64,000 nt of DNA, from positions 1 through 64,000 of the forward strand of contig JADYYS010000027.1 of NCBI GenBank assembly GCA_020853525.1. The letters run 5' to 3'. The notes beneath the pieces are model-generated. The model was given only the letters and a program-made list of their open reading frames with translations, searched no databases and was not told where the DNA came from. This DNA is from Ardenticatenales bacterium (GTDB lineage: Bacteria; Chloroflexota; Anaerolineae; Epilineales; Epilineaceae). The translations under genes and the position numbers were made by a program. Positions within the stretch are counted from its first letter, which is position 1. The number at the start of each line of letters is the position of its first letter. This document shows, one piece after another, positions 23,474-36,617 of the stretch.

Positions 23474-25501
23474 TCAGCTGAGCGGCCCGGCTTCCGATGG
23501 TTCGGACCCGCTGATCCGGGCGGGGGCAGGGCCGCTTTCGGTCCGCGGCGCCTCGCGCGCCAACGGTTCATCGCTTGTCGCCGGGCCGCGCATCAGCCTG
23601 TGGCGTGACCACAGGTAGCCAGCCAGGATGACGGCCGGCGAGATCACGAGCAACGGCCACAGCCGCGACTGCCATTGCGCAGGCGCCACCCCGACGGCGA
23701 CCGCGCTGATCAGGCCGAGGCCTATTGTAATCGCAGCGAAGCGCGGAAGCATGAACGCCACAGTCCGCTCGAGTTGCTCACGCCGTGTCTGCTCCTCGCG
23801 CAAGCGCGCTTCCAGCACGGCGCGCTCCAGCTGCTGTCGGCGCCGCTTGAGCGCTTCCGCCTCGAGGTGGCGCTGTTCGAGCTCGGTGACGGCCAGCTGG
23901 ATGACGGCATCGTCGGGTACGTAGCGCAGCGCCTCGCGATAGGCCTCGACGGCCTGTTCCCAGCGTCCGGCGGCCAGATGCGAGCCGGCTGTGGCGCGCC
24001 ACGTGTTGCGCATGCGCTGCAGGGCGAGCGGGTCGTCCGGCGTGATGTCCAGGATCCGCTGGTAGTGCGGACGCGCCTGATCGAACCGGCCCTCGGACTC
24101 GAGCGTGATGCCGGTGTCGCGGTGCGCTGCCACCAGCCCGTCGCGCGCGCTCTCGACATCCGTTCGGTACGCCTTCTCGAAGGCGTCGATGGCGTGCTCG
24201 AGCTGGCCGCGTTCGTACAGCGCCTGCGCCAGCCCGAGCTGTGCGCGGGCATGGTTCGGGTTGGCGGCGAGCGCGCGGTGGTAGGCCGAGATCGCCTCAA
24301 CGAGCTCGCCGTCGTGGTGCAGCCGGCGCGCCTGCTCGTAGTCACGTACGGCGCGCGCGCTGACCTGCTCGAGCTCGCGCTTGGCCTCGTCCAGCGAGTG
24401 CTTCGTGAGGATCCACTGTCGGAGGAAGTCGACCCGGAACCGGAATGCATCCCGCCCGACGGGCTCGATGATCTCCCAGTCCGTCAGCACTTGCGGAGCC
24501 GTCGAGAGTTCCATGCCCTGCAGCTTCACGCCGTGCTCGTGCAACGCCTGGCCGATCCGGCGCATGCTGGCGACCTCGTGCGCGTGCGTCAGGTGGGCGA
24601 CGGCCGCCAGCAGGAACCGCTCGGCGGGCGGGAACTCGTCCCAGAACCAGGCCAGGCCGCCCATCCCGAGCTCCATCGCCTGCTCGAGGACGTCGTCGGA
24701 GATGTCGTCGGCGGTGATCCGCGTGTTGCCGCGGCGGATGCAGCGATCGAAGAGCTCGTAGCACAAGAGCTGCAGGAAGTACGGGTGCCCGCTCGTCAGC
24801 GCGTGCAGCTTCTCGATCGCATCGCGGTCGTAGCTGACGATCCCGCGCGCGGGTTCGACGATCAGGTCGGTGGCCGAGGCGCGGTCGAGGAGCGAGATCC
24901 GCTTGCACTGGGCGCTCTTGAACGTTGCCTTGATCCGGCTCGGCAGCTCGTCCAGGCGTCGGCCGACGACGAAGATGAACGTCAGGTGCCGCTGCTCGTC
25001 GATGAGCAGGTCCTGCAGATAGCCGAACAGGACGTGGTAGGCCGCATCGGGCGGTACGTGCTCGCCGCCGAGGACGTCGAACTCATCGACGAGCACGAGG
25101 AGGCGGTCGTTGCCGATCACGCGGTAGACCTCGGGCAGGAAGACGTACTGGAAGAACGTCTCGTCCTCGAACGCGGCGCGCGGCGGCAGCTCGATCGCCA
25201 GGCTGCGACTGATCTCGCGGGCCAGTCCGTACAGCACCTGCGCCAGCGCATGTTCGGCGCGGCCCTGCAGATCGAAGTAGATCGGCCGGCAGCCGGCCGG
25301 CGTCTCGCCGCTCTGTCGCAGCTGATGGATCAGGCTCGTCTTCCCGATCCGGCGCTGCCCGAACAGCACGATGACGTTCTGGTATGGGCTGTTCAGCGTG
25401 TTGCGGACGAACTGGAGCACCGAGTCACGGCCAAAGAACCCGACGCCGTCCGTCAGCGGCGTCAAGATGTATGGATTGGCGACGATCTCCCCACGCTGCA
25501 T
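23474..25501 (-). CDS. P-loop ATPase with TPR repeats and two C-terminal membrane helices
   Basis: 675 aa. AAA/STAND-like N-terminus: NPYILTPLTDGVGFFGRDSVL, Walker A GQRRIGKTS (Lys54), Walker B LLVLVDEFDVL (~140), and the HPYFLQLLCYELFDRC helix typical of this ATPase clade. A winged-helix-like linker region follows (~300-375), then TPR units (~395-555; AISAYHRALAANPNHARAQLGLAQALYERG is the clearest), a charged coiled coil (~560-595) and two membrane helices (~600-650). This would place an ATPase with a protein-binding scaffold at the membrane. ATG 25501 is 1 nt after the upstream stop, so translation is coupled. It lacks the DNA-binding domain of its neighbours and may be the sensor or anchor of the set. 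Confidence 0.78.
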   Translation of the reverse strand: MQRGEIVANPYILTPLTDGVGFFGRDSVLQFVRNTLNSPYQNVIVLFGQRRIGKTSLIHQLRQSGETPAGCRPIYFDLQGRAEHALAQVLYGLAREISRSLAIELPPRAAFEDETFFQYVFLPEVYRVIGNDRLLVLVDEFDVLGGEHVPPDAAYHVLFGYLQDLLIDEQRHLTFIFVVGRRLDELPSRIKATFKSAQCKRISLLDRASATDLIVEPARGIVSYDRDAIEKLHALTSGHPYFLQLLCYELFDRCIRRGNTRITADDISDDVLEQAMELGMGGLAWFWDEFPPAERFLLAAVAHLTHAHEVASMRRIGQALHEHGVKLQGMELSTAPQVLTDWEIIEPVGRDAFRFRVDFLRQWILTKHSLDEAKRELEQVSARAVRDYEQARRLHHDGELVEAISAYHRALAANPNHARAQLGLAQALYERGQLEHAIDAFEKAYRTDVESARDGLVAAHRDTGITLESEGRFDQARPHYQRILDITPDDPLALQRMRNTWRATAGSHLAAGRWEQAVEAYREALRYVPDDAVIQLAVTELEQRHLEAEALKRRRQQLERAVLEARLREEQTRREQLERTVAFMLPRFAAITIGLGLISAVAVGVAPAQWQSRLWPLLVISPAVILAGYLWSRHRLMRGPATSDEPLAREAPRTESGPAPARISGSEPSEAGPLS

Positions 25502-25502
25502 C

Positions 25503-26867
25503 TCAGGCGGTGGCCATCGTCTCACGCTGCTGGTAGACGTCTTGCACGCTCGCATTCTGGAAGCGGTAGCCTTGGCCGCGGATGCTCTCGATGTGCTGGA
25601 AGCCGCCCTCCTCGGTCTCGTCGACCTCGACCTCCTTGCGCAGGCGGCTGATCGTCTTCTGGATCATCGCGTCGGTGACGCCCAGCGAGTTGCCGCTGTA
25701 CTCCGGCCAGACCGCGGCGGCGATGTCGTCTTTCGTGACGACGTCGCCCTCGCTGTCCATCAGGAAGCGCAGCAGGGCGAACTCCTTCGGCGGCAACTCG
25801 ATGCTCCGCTTCTCGATCCGCACCTCGCCGGTCTCGGCGTTCAGTTCGATCCGCATCATCTGCCGCCGGACGAAGTCGGCGAACGCCGTCGAGAAGATCT
25901 GCCCATCCAGCACGTAGCCGCGACGCTCGAGGGTCGGCAGCGCCTTGTGCACGACGGACGCTGCCCGCGCATCCTGGCCGTGGCCGACGGCGAGTTGGCA
26001 CAGCGCCTCGCGCTCGAGGTCGGGCAGCTTGGGCCACGCATCGGCGAAGAGGTGCTCGTTGCGCGCGCGGAACTCCTGCTCGACGGCGGCGACGGCGTCG
26101 TCGTCGATCAATGCCGCATCCCCGACGTGGACGTACAGCAGCGCCATCGCCACCTGCATGTAGAACGGGAACCGGCCGGCCAAGCGGTCGATCACGGGCC
26201 GGGCGCGCCGGAAGTCGAAATCGGAGATCGCCGAGATCTCGGCCACGAAGTGGTCGGCTTCCTCGGGCGTGAACGAACCCATGTACACCGTGCGGAACAT
26301 GTTGAAGAACGGCGAACCGCTGCCCCAGTCCTCGCGGAACCGTCCGAGCTCGAGGCGGCTGGCGACGACCGGCGAGACGTCGTATTCGATCAACAGTCCG
26401 CGGAACCACTCCCAGAAGCTACCCTCATAGCCGGCAAGCACGTCGAACTCGTCGATCAGGAGGACCAGCCGCCTGCCGCGGGTGGCCACGTCCTCCAGAT
26501 AGTCCTCGATCCAGGCCCGGTCGATCGTTCCGCCAAAGTCCAGCGTCGAGGTCTCGTCGGCCCGGCGCAACGCCAGCGCCACCCGCCGGAAGAGCGACTC
26601 GGGCGAGTCACCGGCCAGCTGGGCGTTCACGAAGACGAACATCAGCTGCTCGCGCTCGACTTCCGAGAGGAACCGGGACTGCTGGTCGGGGTGCAGCATC
26701 TGGTAGAGGATCGAGGTGTTGCCGCAGCGGTGCTCACCGACCAGTGCCGCCGGCTGCATGTTCTTGACCGACTCGAACAGCTCGCGCAGCTCACGCTCGC
26801 GGCCGTAGAAGTCCTCCGGCGTCTTGATCGGCTTGCCGAGGACGAACGGGGTGCGCTGCTCACTCAT
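25503..26867 (-). CDS. Degenerate P-loop ATPase with C-terminal OmpR-type winged helix
   Basis: 454 aa. Same build as the ATPase at 22111: leader TPEDFYGRERELREL, nucleotide-binding loop, Walker B RRLVLLIDEFDVLAG (~135-149), helical region and an OmpR-type winged helix at residues ~355-445 (LPPKEFALLRFLMDSEGD, VTDAMIQKTISRLRKEV, IRGQGYRF). The Walker A loop reads GEHRCGNTS, with Asn50 (codon AAC) where the other three proteins of this operon have the phosphate-binding Lys. ATP hydrolysis is therefore unlikely; it may bind nucleotide passively or serve as a regulatory subunit. ATG 26867 overlaps the end of the 1575-residue gene by 8 nt, with GGAG upstream. Confidence 0.8.
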   Translation of the reverse strand: MSEQRTPFVLGKPIKTPEDFYGRERELRELFESVKNMQPAALVGEHRCGNTSILYQMLHPDQQSRFLSEVEREQLMFVFVNAQLAGDSPESLFRRVALALRRADETSTLDFGGTIDRAWIEDYLEDVATRGRRLVLLIDEFDVLAGYEGSFWEWFRGLLIEYDVSPVVASRLELGRFREDWGSGSPFFNMFRTVYMGSFTPEEADHFVAEISAISDFDFRRARPVIDRLAGRFPFYMQVAMALLYVHVGDAALIDDDAVAAVEQEFRARNEHLFADAWPKLPDLEREALCQLAVGHGQDARAASVVHKALPTLERRGYVLDGQIFSTAFADFVRRQMMRIELNAETGEVRIEKRSIELPPKEFALLRFLMDSEGDVVTKDDIAAAVWPEYSGNSLGVTDAMIQKTISRLRKEVEVDETEEGGFQHIESIRGQGYRFQNASVQDVYQQRETMATA

Positions 26868-31640: not shown

Positions 31641-31646
31641 AATATA
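31641..31646 (-). promoter_or_regulatory. Candidate -10 box of the four-ATPase operon
   Basis: TATATT on the minus strand, 53 nt upstream of the GTG at 31587, in the only AT-rich patch of the divergent intergenic region. No convincing -35 box. The phased repeat array at 31689-31750 begins 42 bp upstream of this box. Confidence 0.4.
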
Positions 31647-31688
31647 TCGCAGGCGGCGGGCACGGGCAATGTCGGCCACCGTACGCCG

Positions 31689-31750
31689 GTCAGGAATCAG
31701 TCAGGCTTTCGTAAGAAGGCCGTCAGGTCACGGTCAAGCGTACGGTGAAA
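31689..31750. promoter_or_regulatory. 11-bp-phased direct repeats (GTCAGG-like), candidate binding site of a SARP/OmpR-type activator
   Basis: Starting at 31689, 31700, 31711, 31722, 31733 and 31744 (steps of exactly 11 bp) the sequence reads GTCAGGA, GTCAGGC, GTAAGAA, GTCAGGT, GTCAAGC and GGTGAAA. The first, second and fourth are identical over six bases; the last is weak. The array ends 8 bp before TAGTAT, the likely -10 box of the Tad operon. Known SARP-type winged-helix activators bind heptamers at 11-bp steps with the last one 8 bp from the -10. Two proteins of the adjoining operon carry OmpR-type winged helices. Confidence 0.6.
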
Positions 31751-31758
31751 CCCGACAG

Positions 31759-31764
31759 TAGTAT
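31759..31764 (+). promoter_or_regulatory. Candidate -10 box of the Tad operon
   Basis: TAGTAT, 8 bp after the phased repeats and 163 nt before the GTG at 31928. There is no good -35 hexamer at the usual distance, as expected if an activator bound to the repeats replaces it. Confidence 0.45.
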
Positions 31765-31927
31765 GCGGCCCACATTGGAGGCTCGGTCTCCGAAAGTCCA
31801 CCATCGGTCAGCGATGTCAGGCTTCGGAGGGGGTCTCGCGGAGGGATTCGGGTTCGGGAATCGGTTGCCCCGGGCTGGATCCGTCGAATTGCCGCACGAG
31901 GTGGAACATGCAGAGAGGTGTCGCTCC

Positions 31928-32932
31928 GTGAAAGTTCTGGTTGCCACCAAAGACCTGGCCGTGTTCGATGTCCTGCAGGGGTTGACCGGACTCGAGTACG
32001 ACAAGGCCCTGTTCACGGGTCAGATCTATGACGCGCTGCCTGGCGCACAGCTCATCATCGTCGACTTCGACGACCTGGTTGAGCATCCGTACAGTGTCGG
32101 GATGCTGCGGGGGATCCTGTCGGACAGCGACGTCCCGTTCGTGTCCAGCGAGGAGTTCCTGGCCGAGCCCGACGCCTGGCTGCGCGAGGCGCGCCGCCTT
32201 TCGGGCGACTCGAGCGACATGCCGACGAAGCGCACGATCGCGTTCATCTCGTACTCGGGCGGCGTCGGCAAGTCCGTCATCGCGATGGACACGGCCAAGC
32301 ACTTCGCCGAGCGCACCAAGCTGCCGGTCTGCTTGATCGAGTTCACGTACGGCGAGTCGGCGCTGAGCGCCCTCGTCGGCAAGCAGCTGCCGGCGCTCTT
32401 CGAGCTCGCCACACAGCCGGACATCGAGCCCTACGTCTGGAACAACGTCACGCTCGTCCCAATGGACTACGACAACTCGCGTGACCTCTCGATCCAGCTC
32501 CTGGGCAAGTACCTCAAGGACGTCATGCGCGAGCACGTCCTGACGGTGATCGACGCGCGCTGGCCGCACGCCCTGATCGGCGCGGTCCGCGACGAGATCG
32601 ACCGCTGGTACTGCGTGGCCACGGCCGATCGGCCGGATGCCGTCGAGAACGCCGAGAAGCTGGCGGCCGAGATGGGGCCGAAGGCCGGCGTGTTGATGAA
32701 CCAGATGGGCGGCATCGTGGACTCGGTCGCCCTTTCGGGTATCGAGCGCAATGTCGAGTTGCCCGTCCTGCGGTCCGCCGACCGGTTCGAAGGCAAGTTG
32801 GGCAAGCGGGTCTTGTTCCACACCTATGGCCCAGCGGTGTGGGGGGCTTACGAGCCGAAGGGTCCGTTCGCGAACCTCTTCGGCAGCGGCCGGAGCAAGA
32901 AGGCGGCCAAGCCCGCCGTCCAGCCGACCTGA
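31928..32932 (+). CDS. cpaE: CpaE/TadZ-like pilus assembly ATPase
   Basis: 334 aa from GTG 31928, chosen because GAGAGGTG lies before it and the protein then starts directly in a receiver-like fold (KVLVATKDLAVFDVLQGLTG). An N-terminal atypical receiver (residues ~1-95) is followed by a MinD/ParA-like P-loop domain with ISYSGGVGKSVIAMD near 105-118. The MinD-type 'signature' Lys before GG is Ser here, but the Walker Lys is kept. Later segments (LTVIDARWPHAL, VATADRPDAVENAEKL, GVLMNQ) follow the ParA fold. CpaE/TadZ localises the Tad pilus machine, usually to a pole. First gene of the Tad operon. Confidence 0.78.
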   Translation: MKVLVATKDLAVFDVLQGLTGLEYDKALFTGQIYDALPGAQLIIVDFDDLVEHPYSVGMLRGILSDSDVPFVSSEEFLAEPDAWLREARRLSGDSSDMPTKRTIAFISYSGGVGKSVIAMDTAKHFAERTKLPVCLIEFTYGESALSALVGKQLPALFELATQPDIEPYVWNNVTLVPMDYDNSRDLSIQLLGKYLKDVMREHVLTVIDARWPHALIGAVRDEIDRWYCVATADRPDAVENAEKLAAEMGPKAGVLMNQMGGIVDSVALSGIERNVELPVLRSADRFEGKLGKRVLFHTYGPAVWGAYEPKGPFANLFGSGRSKKAAKPAVQPT

Positions 32933-32983: not shown

Positions 32984-33820
32984 ATGAATATCCGTTCGAT
33001 TGCCCTGATCGCCGGTGTCGGTATTCTCGGCATCGGCGCGCTCATGTATCTGTCGAGCCTGTTCAACAAGCCGCAGACGGCAACACCGGTGAATGTGGCC
33101 GTGGCGGCCGCGGCCATCGAGCCGTACACGATCGTCACGCAGGACATGCTCAAGAGCACGACGCTCTCGCCGACGCAGGCCCGCGACCGCGGCGCCTACC
33201 CGGTGGACTTCGTGCCCGGCAAGATGACGACGGCGCGCATCGCACCGGGCGACATCATCAGCACGAAGAACGCGCTGCCGCCGGAGGAGGTCCGCTACGT
33301 CAAGGATCTCAACCTCGAGATCGTTTCGTTCGGCGCTTCGCCCGAGAAGCTGGTGGGCGGCAAGCTGCGCCCCGGCCACATCGTGAACGTGTACGGCTCG
33401 GGCCGCGATGACGACAACCGCGAGTTCACCGTCCTCGTCGAGCCGCGCGTATGGGTCGTCGGCGTCTCGGCGGCGGGCAGCGCGCCGTCGCAGGCCACGC
33501 GGCAGCCGGACCCGCTCACGGGGGAGATCAAGACGTCCGGCGATGCGCGCGAGCGACCGGTGACACTCGTCACCGTCGCGGTGCCGCCGGACAAGGCATT
33601 CCACATCATCGACGCCCTCGGCGCGCAGAACCTGGACCCGTGGCTGACGCTTGCCGCCAACCAGACGCCGGGCCAGCTGTATGCTACCCCGGCCACAGCC
33701 GCCACCGCCACGAACGGCCTGCCGTACGACCTGTCCCTCACCGCGACGGCCCTGGCCAACATCCTCAAGAGCACGCCGGCGCCGCAGCCGCCCCGCACCG
33801 GGGGAGGCGGTGGCCGATGA
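32984..33820 (+). CDS. cpaB: Flp pilus assembly protein CpaB/RcpC
   Basis: 278 aa. One N-terminal membrane helix (residues ~5-25) precedes a SAF-type domain (VNVAVAAAAIEPYTIVTQDMLKSTTLS... through PGDIISTKNALP), the CpaB signature; the C-terminal part carries a beta domain with VNVYGSGRDDDNREFTVLVEPRVWVVGV. In diderms CpaB works with the secretin; no secretin gene is seen here, so it probably acts at or in the cell wall. ATG 32984 has GGGGGAGAA 7 nt upstream. It overlaps tadA by 4 nt (ATGA). Confidence 0.85.
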   Translation: MNIRSIALIAGVGILGIGALMYLSSLFNKPQTATPVNVAVAAAAIEPYTIVTQDMLKSTTLSPTQARDRGAYPVDFVPGKMTTARIAPGDIISTKNALPPEEVRYVKDLNLEIVSFGASPEKLVGGKLRPGHIVNVYGSGRDDDNREFTVLVEPRVWVVGVSAAGSAPSQATRQPDPLTGEIKTSGDARERPVTLVTVAVPPDKAFHIIDALGAQNLDPWLTLAANQTPGQLYATPATAATATNGLPYDLSLTATALANILKSTPAPQPPRTGGGGGR

Positions 33821-35034
33821 GCAGCGTCGCACGCTACGACTACAACGATATCGTCAAGAAGGTTCAGGACTACTGCGTCCGGCGTGAGATCCCGGTGCCG
33901 CGTTGGCGCCGCGCAAACGCGGTGAATCCCGAGGAGGAGCTCGCATTCCACGCCAACGTGCTGCGGGCCATGAAGGAGCTGCGACTCGATGTCGCCGAAG
34001 AGGACCGGCAGGCGGTGGCGCGCGAGGTCGCGAACCGGATCACCGGCCTCGGCGTCCTGCAGCCGTACCTGGAGCAGGAAGGCGTCGAGGAGATCATCGT
34101 CCGCAAGGGCTTCGTCCAGATCGAGCGCATGGGCCAGATCCATGACGTCGGCGAGGTTGCTCCGGACGAGTACTTCTACCGGATGACCCGCCGCATCGCC
34201 GACCTCGAGGGCAAGGAGATCGGCGCCGAGGACCCGCAGATCAAGCTCGGACTGCCGGACGGCTCGCGCTTCACCGCCGCCATCCCGCCGCTCTCCCGCG
34301 AGGGCACCGCCATCAACATCCGGCGGTTCTCGCGCAAGAAGCTCACGTTCGAGGACCTGATCGAGTACAAGGCGATCGACGCCGAGACGGCGGAGTTCCT
34401 CAAGGGCGTCGCGCGGATGATGGACAAGAGCGCGATCTTCTCGGGCCGTCCGGGCGCCGGCAAGACGACGATCCTGAACGCGTTCACGCAGTACCTGCCC
34501 AAGCACTGCCAGCTGGCGCTCGTCGAGACGTTCCAGGAAGTGCAGCCGCAGCTCGGCCACTACGCCCACCTCGTCGTCGAGGAAGGGCACGGCGAGGTCG
34601 GGCGCGTCGTCAACGTCGTCTTCCTGCGGATGCGGCCGGACGTCATGATCATCGGCGAGACGGTGTCGGAAGAGGCCATCGAGTTCATCATGGGCCTCAA
34701 CCTCGGGATCACGGCCTACACGACGACGCACGCGCACTCCGCCCGCTTGGCGATGACGCGCATCGAGACGCTGTCGCGCGGCAGCGGCATTCCGCTCGAC
34801 GAGCGGCGCGAGATCATCGGCTCCGGCCTCGGTCTGGCGGTCCACATCCACAAGGGCTACGACCCGGACAGCCAGCAGTACAAGCGCTACATGCGGGAGA
34901 TGATCGCGGTGCACGGCGTCACGCGCGGCACCGGCGAGGCGGTCGAGTACGACTACGAGGTCATCAAGGAGTACGACATGCGGCGCAAGACGTGGACGCC
35001 GCTGCGAGAACCGCGCCGCTGGCGCGAAGCGTAG
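33817..35034 (+). CDS. tadA: Tad/Flp pilus assembly ATPase TadA/CpaF
   Basis: 405 aa. Secretion ATPase of the VirB11/PulE superfamily that powers pilin assembly. An N-terminal helical region with VLQPYLEQEGVEEIIVRKG leads to the core: RRFSRKKLTFEDLIEYKAID, Walker A SGRPGAGKTTIL (~210-221), Asp box LALVETFQEVQP, Walker B MRPDVMIIGETVSEEA, and His box AYTTTHAHSARLAMTRIETL. ATG 33817 overlaps the cpaB stop and has GGGGGAGG upstream. TadB and TadC follow, the membrane platform on which it acts. Confidence 0.93.
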   Translation: MSSVARYDYNDIVKKVQDYCVRREIPVPRWRRANAVNPEEELAFHANVLRAMKELRLDVAEEDRQAVAREVANRITGLGVLQPYLEQEGVEEIIVRKGFVQIERMGQIHDVGEVAPDEYFYRMTRRIADLEGKEIGAEDPQIKLGLPDGSRFTAAIPPLSREGTAINIRRFSRKKLTFEDLIEYKAIDAETAEFLKGVARMMDKSAIFSGRPGAGKTTILNAFTQYLPKHCQLALVETFQEVQPQLGHYAHLVVEEGHGEVGRVVNVVFLRMRPDVMIIGETVSEEAIEFIMGLNLGITAYTTTHAHSARLAMTRIETLSRGSGIPLDERREIIGSGLGLAVHIHKGYDPDSQQYKRYMREMIAVHGVTRGTGEAVEYDYEVIKEYDMRRKTWTPLREPRRWREA

Positions 35035-35058
35035 CCGCGGTCAGCTGGAGGCGATGCC

Positions 35059-35952
35059 ATGAGCCCAATCTTCCTCCTGATGGTAGGCGGCGGCCTGATC
35101 GTCGGCTTTCTGGTGTACGACTGGATAACGCACCGCATGCGCGGCCGGCTCAAGAAGGGCCGGGCCATCGCCAAGAAGAAGGTCAGCAGCAAGATCGACT
35201 GGAAGGTGTACGCCCTCGGGATCTACACCGTGGTCGTCTTCTACCTCTACATCCGCGGGCTGAACCGCGCCATCGTGCCGGAGGGAATGGATCCGATCGA
35301 TGTCGAGGCGGTGATCAAGCGCGCCTGGGCTCCGGCCGTCTTCATCCTGATCGTGGGCGGCTGGCTCACGTGGCGGCAGTCGAAGGCGGCCCGGGTCGGC
35401 GAGCGGTTGCTCATCACCGGTCAGGTGGCCGAGCTCGTGGCCGCGTTCAAAAGCGTCTTCCGCATCCGGCCGACGGTCTTCAATGCGCTCGAGGAGTCCA
35501 ACAAGAAGATCCCGCAGCCCGTCGGCGGTGCGGTGGCCCATGCGGTGACCACCTTCTACGTGACGGCGCATCCGGCCCGGGCGTGGAGCGAGCTGCGCGA
35601 GCGGATCCAGGATCCGTACATGGAGCAGTTCGTGTACATCCTGCAGCGCGGTGAGGACTCCAAGCACGAGGACATCATGGTCGCGCTCGACGGCCTGCTC
35701 AAGCGCCTTCGGCGGGCGCGGGAGCTGCGGGACAAGTCCGAGGTGAACATGACGGTCGTCACCGGGCAGACGCGAATCATCCAGTTGATCGCGCTCGCCA
35801 TGATCGCCGTGATCGGCTTCGTGCCGATGCTGCGCGAGCTGTACGAGTACACGGCCGGTCAGATCATGTTCCTCATCGTCGCCGGCATCTCGGTCGGGAC
35901 GAGCTACATCATCGAGCGGAAGGCCGTGACGCTCAAGGAGAAGGTTCTCTGA
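35059..35952 (+). CDS. tadB: Tad pilus inner-membrane platform protein TadB-like
   Basis: 297 aa. A helix at the N-terminus (residues ~5-18), two helices near 50-70 and 88-105, a cytosolic T2SSF-type four-helix domain (~115-225; LKRLRRARELRDKSEVNM near its end) and two C-terminal membrane helices (~235-285). This is the TadB layout, although an extra N-terminal helix is present and the sequence is diverged. TadB and TadC form the membrane platform that receives pilins and is driven by TadA. ATG 35059 has GGAGG about 10 nt upstream; its stop overlaps the tadC start by one base. Confidence 0.85.
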   Translation: MSPIFLLMVGGGLIVGFLVYDWITHRMRGRLKKGRAIAKKKVSSKIDWKVYALGIYTVVVFYLYIRGLNRAIVPEGMDPIDVEAVIKRAWAPAVFILIVGGWLTWRQSKAARVGERLLITGQVAELVAAFKSVFRIRPTVFNALEESNKKIPQPVGGAVAHAVTTFYVTAHPARAWSELRERIQDPYMEQFVYILQRGEDSKHEDIMVALDGLLKRLRRARELRDKSEVNMTVVTGQTRIIQLIALAMIAVIGFVPMLRELYEYTAGQIMFLIVAGISVGTSYIIERKAVTLKEKVL

Positions 35953-36617
35953 TGGATTTCTCCATCATGCTCGCGATCGTCGCGGTCTTCATGTTCGGCA
36001 TCGGCATGGCCGTGATGTGGCGTCCGTTCTGGCGCATTCAGGCCAAGCGCCGCGCGCCACGCTACGCCCGGTACCGGCCGCGGAACTGGTGGCGCCGGGT
36101 GCGCAAGCGGCCGGCCTTCGAGGTTGACCTGCCGACCGTCCGCGACTTCGTCCTCACGCTGCAGCTGTCGCTCAGCCTGGCCGAGACGATGGCGGGCGCA
36201 CTGAACCAGGCGGCCAAGCAGTTCGGCGACCGTGGCCAGTTCGGCAAGCGGTTGATCACCCGCGTTCGCTCGCAGCTGCAGGTCGAGCCTGAGGCCGTCA
36301 TCCGGGCGCTGGCGACGGACTTCAACAACGAGCACTTGGCCGAGCTCTCCGAGCGCCTCGAGCTGGCGCACGAAGGCGGTCTCTCCTACTCCGAGGCCGT
36401 CAACACGACGCTCGACGACATCGAGGAGGAGATCCGCATCCGCGTCGAGAAGGACATCGAGCGGGCGCCGGTCATCCTGACGATCCCGATGATCATGGGC
36501 GTCTTCTTCATGACGCTTCTCCTCCTCGGGGCACCGCTCATCCTGCTCTTCGTGAAGAACTTGGGCGGCGCGACCGGCCCCGGCACGACGGACATCCCGG
36601 GCATCGGCGGCGGTTGA
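35952..36617 (+). CDS. tadC: Tad pilus inner-membrane platform protein TadC-like
   Basis: 221 aa. An N-terminal membrane helix (residues ~3-24), a T2SSF-type helical domain (~55-165; VRDFVLTLQLSLSLAETMAGAL matches the start of TadC domains, and ATDFNNEHLAELSERLELA the middle), and a C-terminal hydrophobic segment (~173-197). It is somewhat shorter than many TadC proteins (about 280 aa), as if one membrane helix were missing. The ATG shares its A with the tadB TGA, giving strong coupling. 165 nt later comes the promoter and gene of the major pilin. Confidence 0.82.
   Translation: MDFSIMLAIVAVFMFGIGMAVMWRPFWRIQAKRRAPRYARYRPRNWWRRVRKRPAFEVDLPTVRDFVLTLQLSLSLAETMAGALNQAAKQFGDRGQFGKRLITRVRSQLQVEPEAVIRALATDFNNEHLAELSERLELAHEGGLSYSEAVNTTLDDIEEEIRIRVEKDIERAPVILTIPMIMGVFFMTLLLLGAPLILLFVKNLGGATGPGTTDIPGIGGG

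Follow-up and report, generated by a model that had tools for sequence, protein, structure and literature searches.

A phased GTCAG repeat array as a predicted operator of STAND NTPase-winged-helix proteins at a Tad pilus promoter

We identified an array of direct repeats at 11-bp steps that probably serves as the activator operator of a tad promoter, driven by one or both of the divergently encoded STAND-winged-helix proteins P0003 and P0005 (Table 1). The array lies within the window, that is, the whole stretch of 64,000 nucleotides analysed here. At the tad promoter, the repeats would take over the role of the -35 box. P0003 and/or P0005 would bind head to tail, with one protomer per 11-bp repeat and all protomers on the same face of the DNA; upon a signal, their NTPase modules would assemble on the array, and the assembled regulators would recruit RNA polymerase to the -10 box at 31759, turning the Tad genes on. 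We infer binding as such, which of P0003 and P0005 binds, activation over repression, NTP-dependent assembly, and the signal from the features described below. An earlier note on this DNA had also read the repeats as an operator, a reading now backed by a phase held across genera and by a comparative-genomic link to STAND NTPase-winged-helix proteins.

Table 1. Features of the tad locus and its divergent operon (window coordinates)
Feature	Position	Strand	Basis or remark
P0005: nSTAND1/AAA NTPase with C-terminal OmpR-type winged helix	22111..23571	-	Pfam; recognition helix of the PspA-linked type
P0004: NTPase and TPR repeats, hydrophobic segment near the C-terminus	23474..25555	-	True start inside the ORF
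P0003: nSTAND2 NTPase with C-terminal OmpR-type winged helix, candidate tad regulator	25503..26867	-	Pfam
P0001: NACHT/AAA, HEAT repeats and second NTPase, 1575 aa	26860..31587	-	Pfam, synteny
Predicted sigma70-type promoter of the divergent operon	31641..31669	-	-35 TTGCCC (31669-31664), 17 bp, -10 TATATT (31646-31641)
Five direct repeats, period 11, GTCAGNNNNNN (third GTAAG, fifth GTCAAGC)	31689..31743	+	Predicted activator operator
Weak sixth repeat, GGTGAAA, 15 bp before the start of the -10	31744..31750	+	ACTACGG in G001, CGCTGGC in G002
-10 box of the tad promoter, TAGTAT	31759..31764	+	Offset 26 from last repeat; offset histogram; shifted -10 control
First tad gene, putative ParA/MinD-like TadZ/CpaE-type, GTG start	31928..32932	+	Relatives align from the same start
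Further Tad genes: CpaB/RcpC (SAF), TadA-type T2SSE ATPase, TadB/TadC-type T2SSF	32984..36617	+	Pfam

Direct reading of the DNA places the first three units, GTCAGGAATCA, GTCAGGCTTTC and GTAAGAAGGCC, at 31689, 31700 and 31711, and the fourth and fifth, GTCAGGTCACG and GTCAAGCGTAC, at 31722 and 31733; a weak sixth slot, GGTGAAACCCG, begins at 31744. A consensus-free score of self-similarity for five heptamers at period 11, starting from 31687-31689, reaches 50 of 70 pairwise identities, which is the top score of the whole window (runner-up, 43) and was never attained in 2000 rounds of dinucleotide shuffling of the intergenic region. Together, the reading and the shuffles confirm the earlier description of five GTCAG-type heptamers exactly 11 bp apart between 31689 and 31733. 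A short motif within a GC-rich spacer could in principle arise by chance or by neutral tandem duplication, but the shuffles, the restriction of conservation between genera to the core, and the class-wide promoter signature leave this explanation a negligible probability, and we consider it refuted by the comparative data. An inverted repeat, CACCGTACGC/GCGTACGGTG (31677-31686 and 31738-31747), was rejected as a candidate feature, being lost in G001 and G002. As a side observation, GTCAGGCTT at 31816-31824 in the tad leader exactly matches the opening letters of the second repeat, though this copy, at 127 bp from the first unit, does not keep the phase; a lone TGTCAGGG is also present in the tad leader of G002.

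Relatives for comparison were chosen by the presence of a TadZ homolog in whole genomes, and include two members of other genera in the same family (G001 and G002). Both carry five units in phase before tad (GTCAG, GTCAG, GGAAG or GTAAG, GTCAG, and GTCAAGC). In an alignment of the three genera, the GTCAG core is invariant at 24 of 25 positions, compared with 11 of 30 in the spacers and 66 of 266 outside the array. The tad array of G028, which belongs to another order, reads GTCATATTCTT GTCATAAAGAA GTCATGCTGCG GACAGAGCAAT ATCATGC and is accompanied by a TATTAT at an offset of 26 bp from where the last unit starts. Elsewhere, G003 has a tad array with one phase slip and G005 a weak remnant, while in G004 TadZ is present and no array was seen in the 489 bp upstream of the match, where the contig ends. 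The earlier note had proposed this comparison of phase: the phase is kept for five repeats in other genera, but the sixth repeat is lost, and, judging from its absence in relatives, it is probably not a real unit. Likewise, TAGTAT does lie 8 bp past the sixth heptamer as had been described, but that heptamer is the unconserved one. The last conserved repeat (31733) starts 26 bp before the start of the -10 (27 bp in G001 and G002), so that the gap from heptamer to -10 is 19 bp, not 8. No -35 consensus is found at the tad promoter, where its place would fall under the fifth repeat; transcription is predicted to begin at about 31771. Downstream, the part of the first tad ORF that precedes the GTG is leader. 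The product of this gene has no Pfam match, and its putative TadZ/CpaE-type name is taken from a ParA-like motif and from its neighbours.

The same promoter layout recurs across the class. A pattern of three units followed by TANNMT at 26 bp, with one mismatch allowed, gave 53 matches in 199 genomes of the class versus 1 for a reversed control, and moving the -10 by 5 bp in the same scan reduced the matches to only 3. With up to 2 mismatches in 60 genomes, the pattern yielded 45 matches versus 1 for the reversed control; a previous version with two units and the -10 gave too few matches to judge. Further arrays were collected from whole genomes by the repeat pattern alone, leaving the -10 unused. 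Where TANNMT followed an array, its offset, counted from the first base of the last unit that could be recognised, was 26 (8 arrays) or 37 (5 arrays), with other positions rare, and the box is therefore in phase with the repeats. Moreover, a position weight matrix built solely from fifteen pspA sites, all from other families, ranked the tad array (31711-31764) first in the window at 25.9 bits, a lead of 23 bits over the second-best site (2.5). The same profile gave 19.5 to the tad array of G028 and 22.8 to an array in G002 that stands in front of the P0004-P0005 pair, with a -10 at 26, on another contig than tad.

The divergent operon next to this promoter is itself conserved. P0001 is the divergent neighbour of tad in G001, G002, G003, G005 and G028, and we observed it to be always divergent to tad where contigs permit inspection; a P0003 homolog comes next after P0001 in G002, G005 and G028, the contigs breaking off in G001 and G003. 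The two OmpR-type winged helices that the earlier note attributed to this operon are confirmed by Pfam (PF00486, E 6.8e-16 and 1.2e-19). Domain calls based on Pfam and PDB sequence matches (PhoB, 1gxp) give both P0003 and P0005 an AAA/nSTAND domain together with a Trans_reg_C domain, the latter C-terminal at residues 354-436 of 454 and 407-480 of 486, respectively. Pfam returned no match to Response_reg in either protein. The Walker A motif is intact in P0005 (GPLGSGKS), and reads GEHRCGNT in P0003, with Asn replacing the usual Lys, which suggests that the P0003 NTPase may be altered in nucleotide binding. Homologs of P0003 (E<1e-34) occur in G001, G002, G003, G005 and G028 and in none of the others among 59 relatives. 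Close TadZ homologs occur in these five and in G004, such that P0003 homologs are found in 5 of the 6 genomes with a close TadZ and in 0 of the 53 relatives without one, and, within the genomes searched, are confined to carriers of tad. The recognition helix of P0005, DDARVEKLVSRLRRKIE, fits the pattern DDAR[IV][ED]KLxSR[LV]R of 17 PspA-linked proteins, a type seen in 0 of 13 other winged helices of the same genome; that of P0003 differs from it and shares part of the PspA-linked type.

These features bear on the earlier label of the site as SARP-like. SARPs typically bind heptamer repeats at 11-bp steps that overlap the -35 region, and large SARPs also carry NTPase and TPR parts (PMC10972967, PMC5930380). 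The array, too, is built of directly repeated heptamers, one per 11 bp, and overlaps the -35 position, resembling the operators of ActII-ORF4, DnrI, PimR and AfsR with their units of a heptamer and a 4-bp spacer. However, the core here is GTCAG, and the distance between the last conserved unit and the -10 is longer by one turn; the repeat placed 8 bp before the -10 is precisely the one that is not conserved. Furthermore, SARPs have an N-terminal DNA-binding domain followed by a BTAD, whereas no BTAD is found in P0003 or P0005 (Pfam, E up to 1) and the winged helix of each is C-terminal, behind a STAND/AAA NTPase. A true SARP operator with a SARP protein is accordingly very improbable, and the label was dropped. 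From the tests made on these sequences, the array would work like a SARP or Pho-box promoter but would not belong to a SARP system. STAND-type transcription regulators such as AfsR and the MalT-like proteins join an NTPase switch module to a DNA-binding domain; in P0003 and P0005, the order is NTPase then OmpR-type winged helix, and no BTAD is present.

A serious rival is that an OmpR/PhoB-family response regulator encoded elsewhere, PhoB or another, binds the array, the adjacency of STAND-winged-helix genes being incidental or a matter of co-regulation. The E. coli phoA Pho box likewise has GTCA repeats at an 11-bp step, placed 26 and 15 bp before the -10; this layout marks the 11-bp geometry as common to the OmpR/PhoB family, and means that the tad array has the register of a Pho box in which the final slot (15 bp) is empty. 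The likeness to the Pho boxes of E. coli phoA and pstS extends to GTCA-type direct repeats and, for phoA, to an identical 26-bp register, as well as to the head-to-tail tandem binding of winged helices in which the last units replace the -35 (PMC4415409), which is predicted here. In G028, the tad array GTCATATTCTTGTCAT resembles CTGTCAT Pho boxes (PMC4415409), and 13 other winged-helix proteins of the genome under study were compared. In contrast to a Pho box, the tad array has five repeats, an empty 15-bp slot and linked proteins that lack a receiver domain, and no such array was found at the pst promoters scanned. Specifically, a scan limited to pst/phoU neighbourhoods found no array at two PhoU loci of this genome (G000; one with an upstream PBP_like_2 protein) or at the pstS/phoU loci of G002, G003, G005 and G028, and on this basis the Pho-regulon reading was set aside. 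Moreover, the other 13 winged helices all lack a recognition helix of the PspA-linked type.

The arrangement of a STAND-winged-helix gene, an array and pspA, repeated in many genera, also stands against a response regulator encoded elsewhere. In the 60-genome set, 15 arrays precede PspA/IM30 genes, and 11 of these start 6-134 bp behind the end of a P0005-like STAND-winged-helix gene; the class scan adds four adjacent STAND-winged-helix/array/pspA pairs, plus three about 1.1 kb apart. Other genes downstream of arrays encode SPFH/Band_7 proteins (two), AIM24, another PspA, an ECF sigma factor and a DUF4870 protein, and arrays also occur before genes with no obvious membrane role (glutamate dehydrogenase and recJ). 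Arrays are present in 20 of 26 genomes with a P0005-like protein (E<1e-20) versus 5 of 33 others (Fisher p ~3e-6, uncorrected for shared ancestry). Most of the loci that encode the 17 PspA-linked proteins, with their arrays, are orthologs of one another, and they represent few independent events. Independent links between arrays and STAND-winged-helix genes come from three places: the pspA locus, the tad locus and the P0004-P0005 pair. Conversely, some of the arrays in other families have no STAND-winged-helix gene in their vicinity and stand before small RNAs or unrelated genes, and G050 has an array and no P0005-like protein at E<1e-20; similar sites can thus be used by a different OmpR-type protein. 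On balance, we consider an OmpR/PhoB-family response regulator an unlikely but substantial alternative, and favor the divergently encoded STAND-winged-helix proteins as the activators of tad.

It is also conceivable that the array acts mainly on the divergent operon, in autoregulation or repression, with tad secondary. The earlier note had likewise raised possible control of their own operon by the winged-helix proteins. The divergent -35 is 19 bp from the edge of the array, and the P0004-P0005 pair of G002 has an array of its own. Nevertheless, the repeats are oriented toward tad and keep a fixed 26-bp spacing to the tad-side -10, while the divergent promoter possesses its own -35 and -10, a layout also found elsewhere (TTGCTT-17-TATATT in G002, TTGTCA-17-TATAAT in G028, and an 18-bp spacer in G001). 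We therefore regard a principal role at the divergent operon as highly improbable.

Additional arrays were observed in other contexts. At L172 (G004:C59), the gene of an ECF sigma factor lies behind an array that has TATAAT at 26 bp, and is itself followed by what may be the gene of its anti-sigma factor. Arrays ending in GTCAAGC at L087 (G000:C30 near 48120), L092 (two paralogs, G001) and L096 (G002) lie 26 bp before TAGACT, GATACT or TAAACT; the genes downstream, in three genera, encode similar small secreted proteins of ~160 aa with no Pfam match. In other families of the class, arrays precede an apparent small-RNA family (L209 from 2422 onward, in two tandem copies, and L210, L212, L213, L214 and L158), with a layout of -10, ~45 nt, a conserved UUCUCCUCCUU (anti-Shine-Dalgarno) stretch, and a GC-rich terminator hairpin with a U run. 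Rfam and tRNA scans of the array loci without STAND-winged-helix neighbours returned no match.

The recurrence of the array before PspA/IM30, SPFH and AIM24 genes in relatives is a point of likeness to the PSP envelope-stress systems, and these targets suggest that the signal may be envelope stress. The available part of a survey of PSP systems names two-component, PadR-type and other partners of PspA, and no STAND-winged-helix regulator is described there (PMC11237479). In the literature searched, we found no characterised DNA site for regulators that combine a STAND NTPase with an OmpR-type winged helix; the array gives this regulator type a concrete predicted operator and connects it with PspA and the Tad pili, both of them membrane systems, in a poorly cultured group of bacteria. 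We tentatively hypothesize, at somewhat less than even confidence, that, in this class, STAND NTPase-winged-helix proteins might be one-component regulators used as an alternative to two-component systems, reading a shared GTCAG array promoter and running a membrane and envelope regulon (pspA, SPFH, AIM24 and an ECF sigma factor, plus the Tad pilus in one order), with the P0003-type copies specialised for Tad. Genomes can be scanned directly for the promoter signature, which makes the regulon predictable from sequence.
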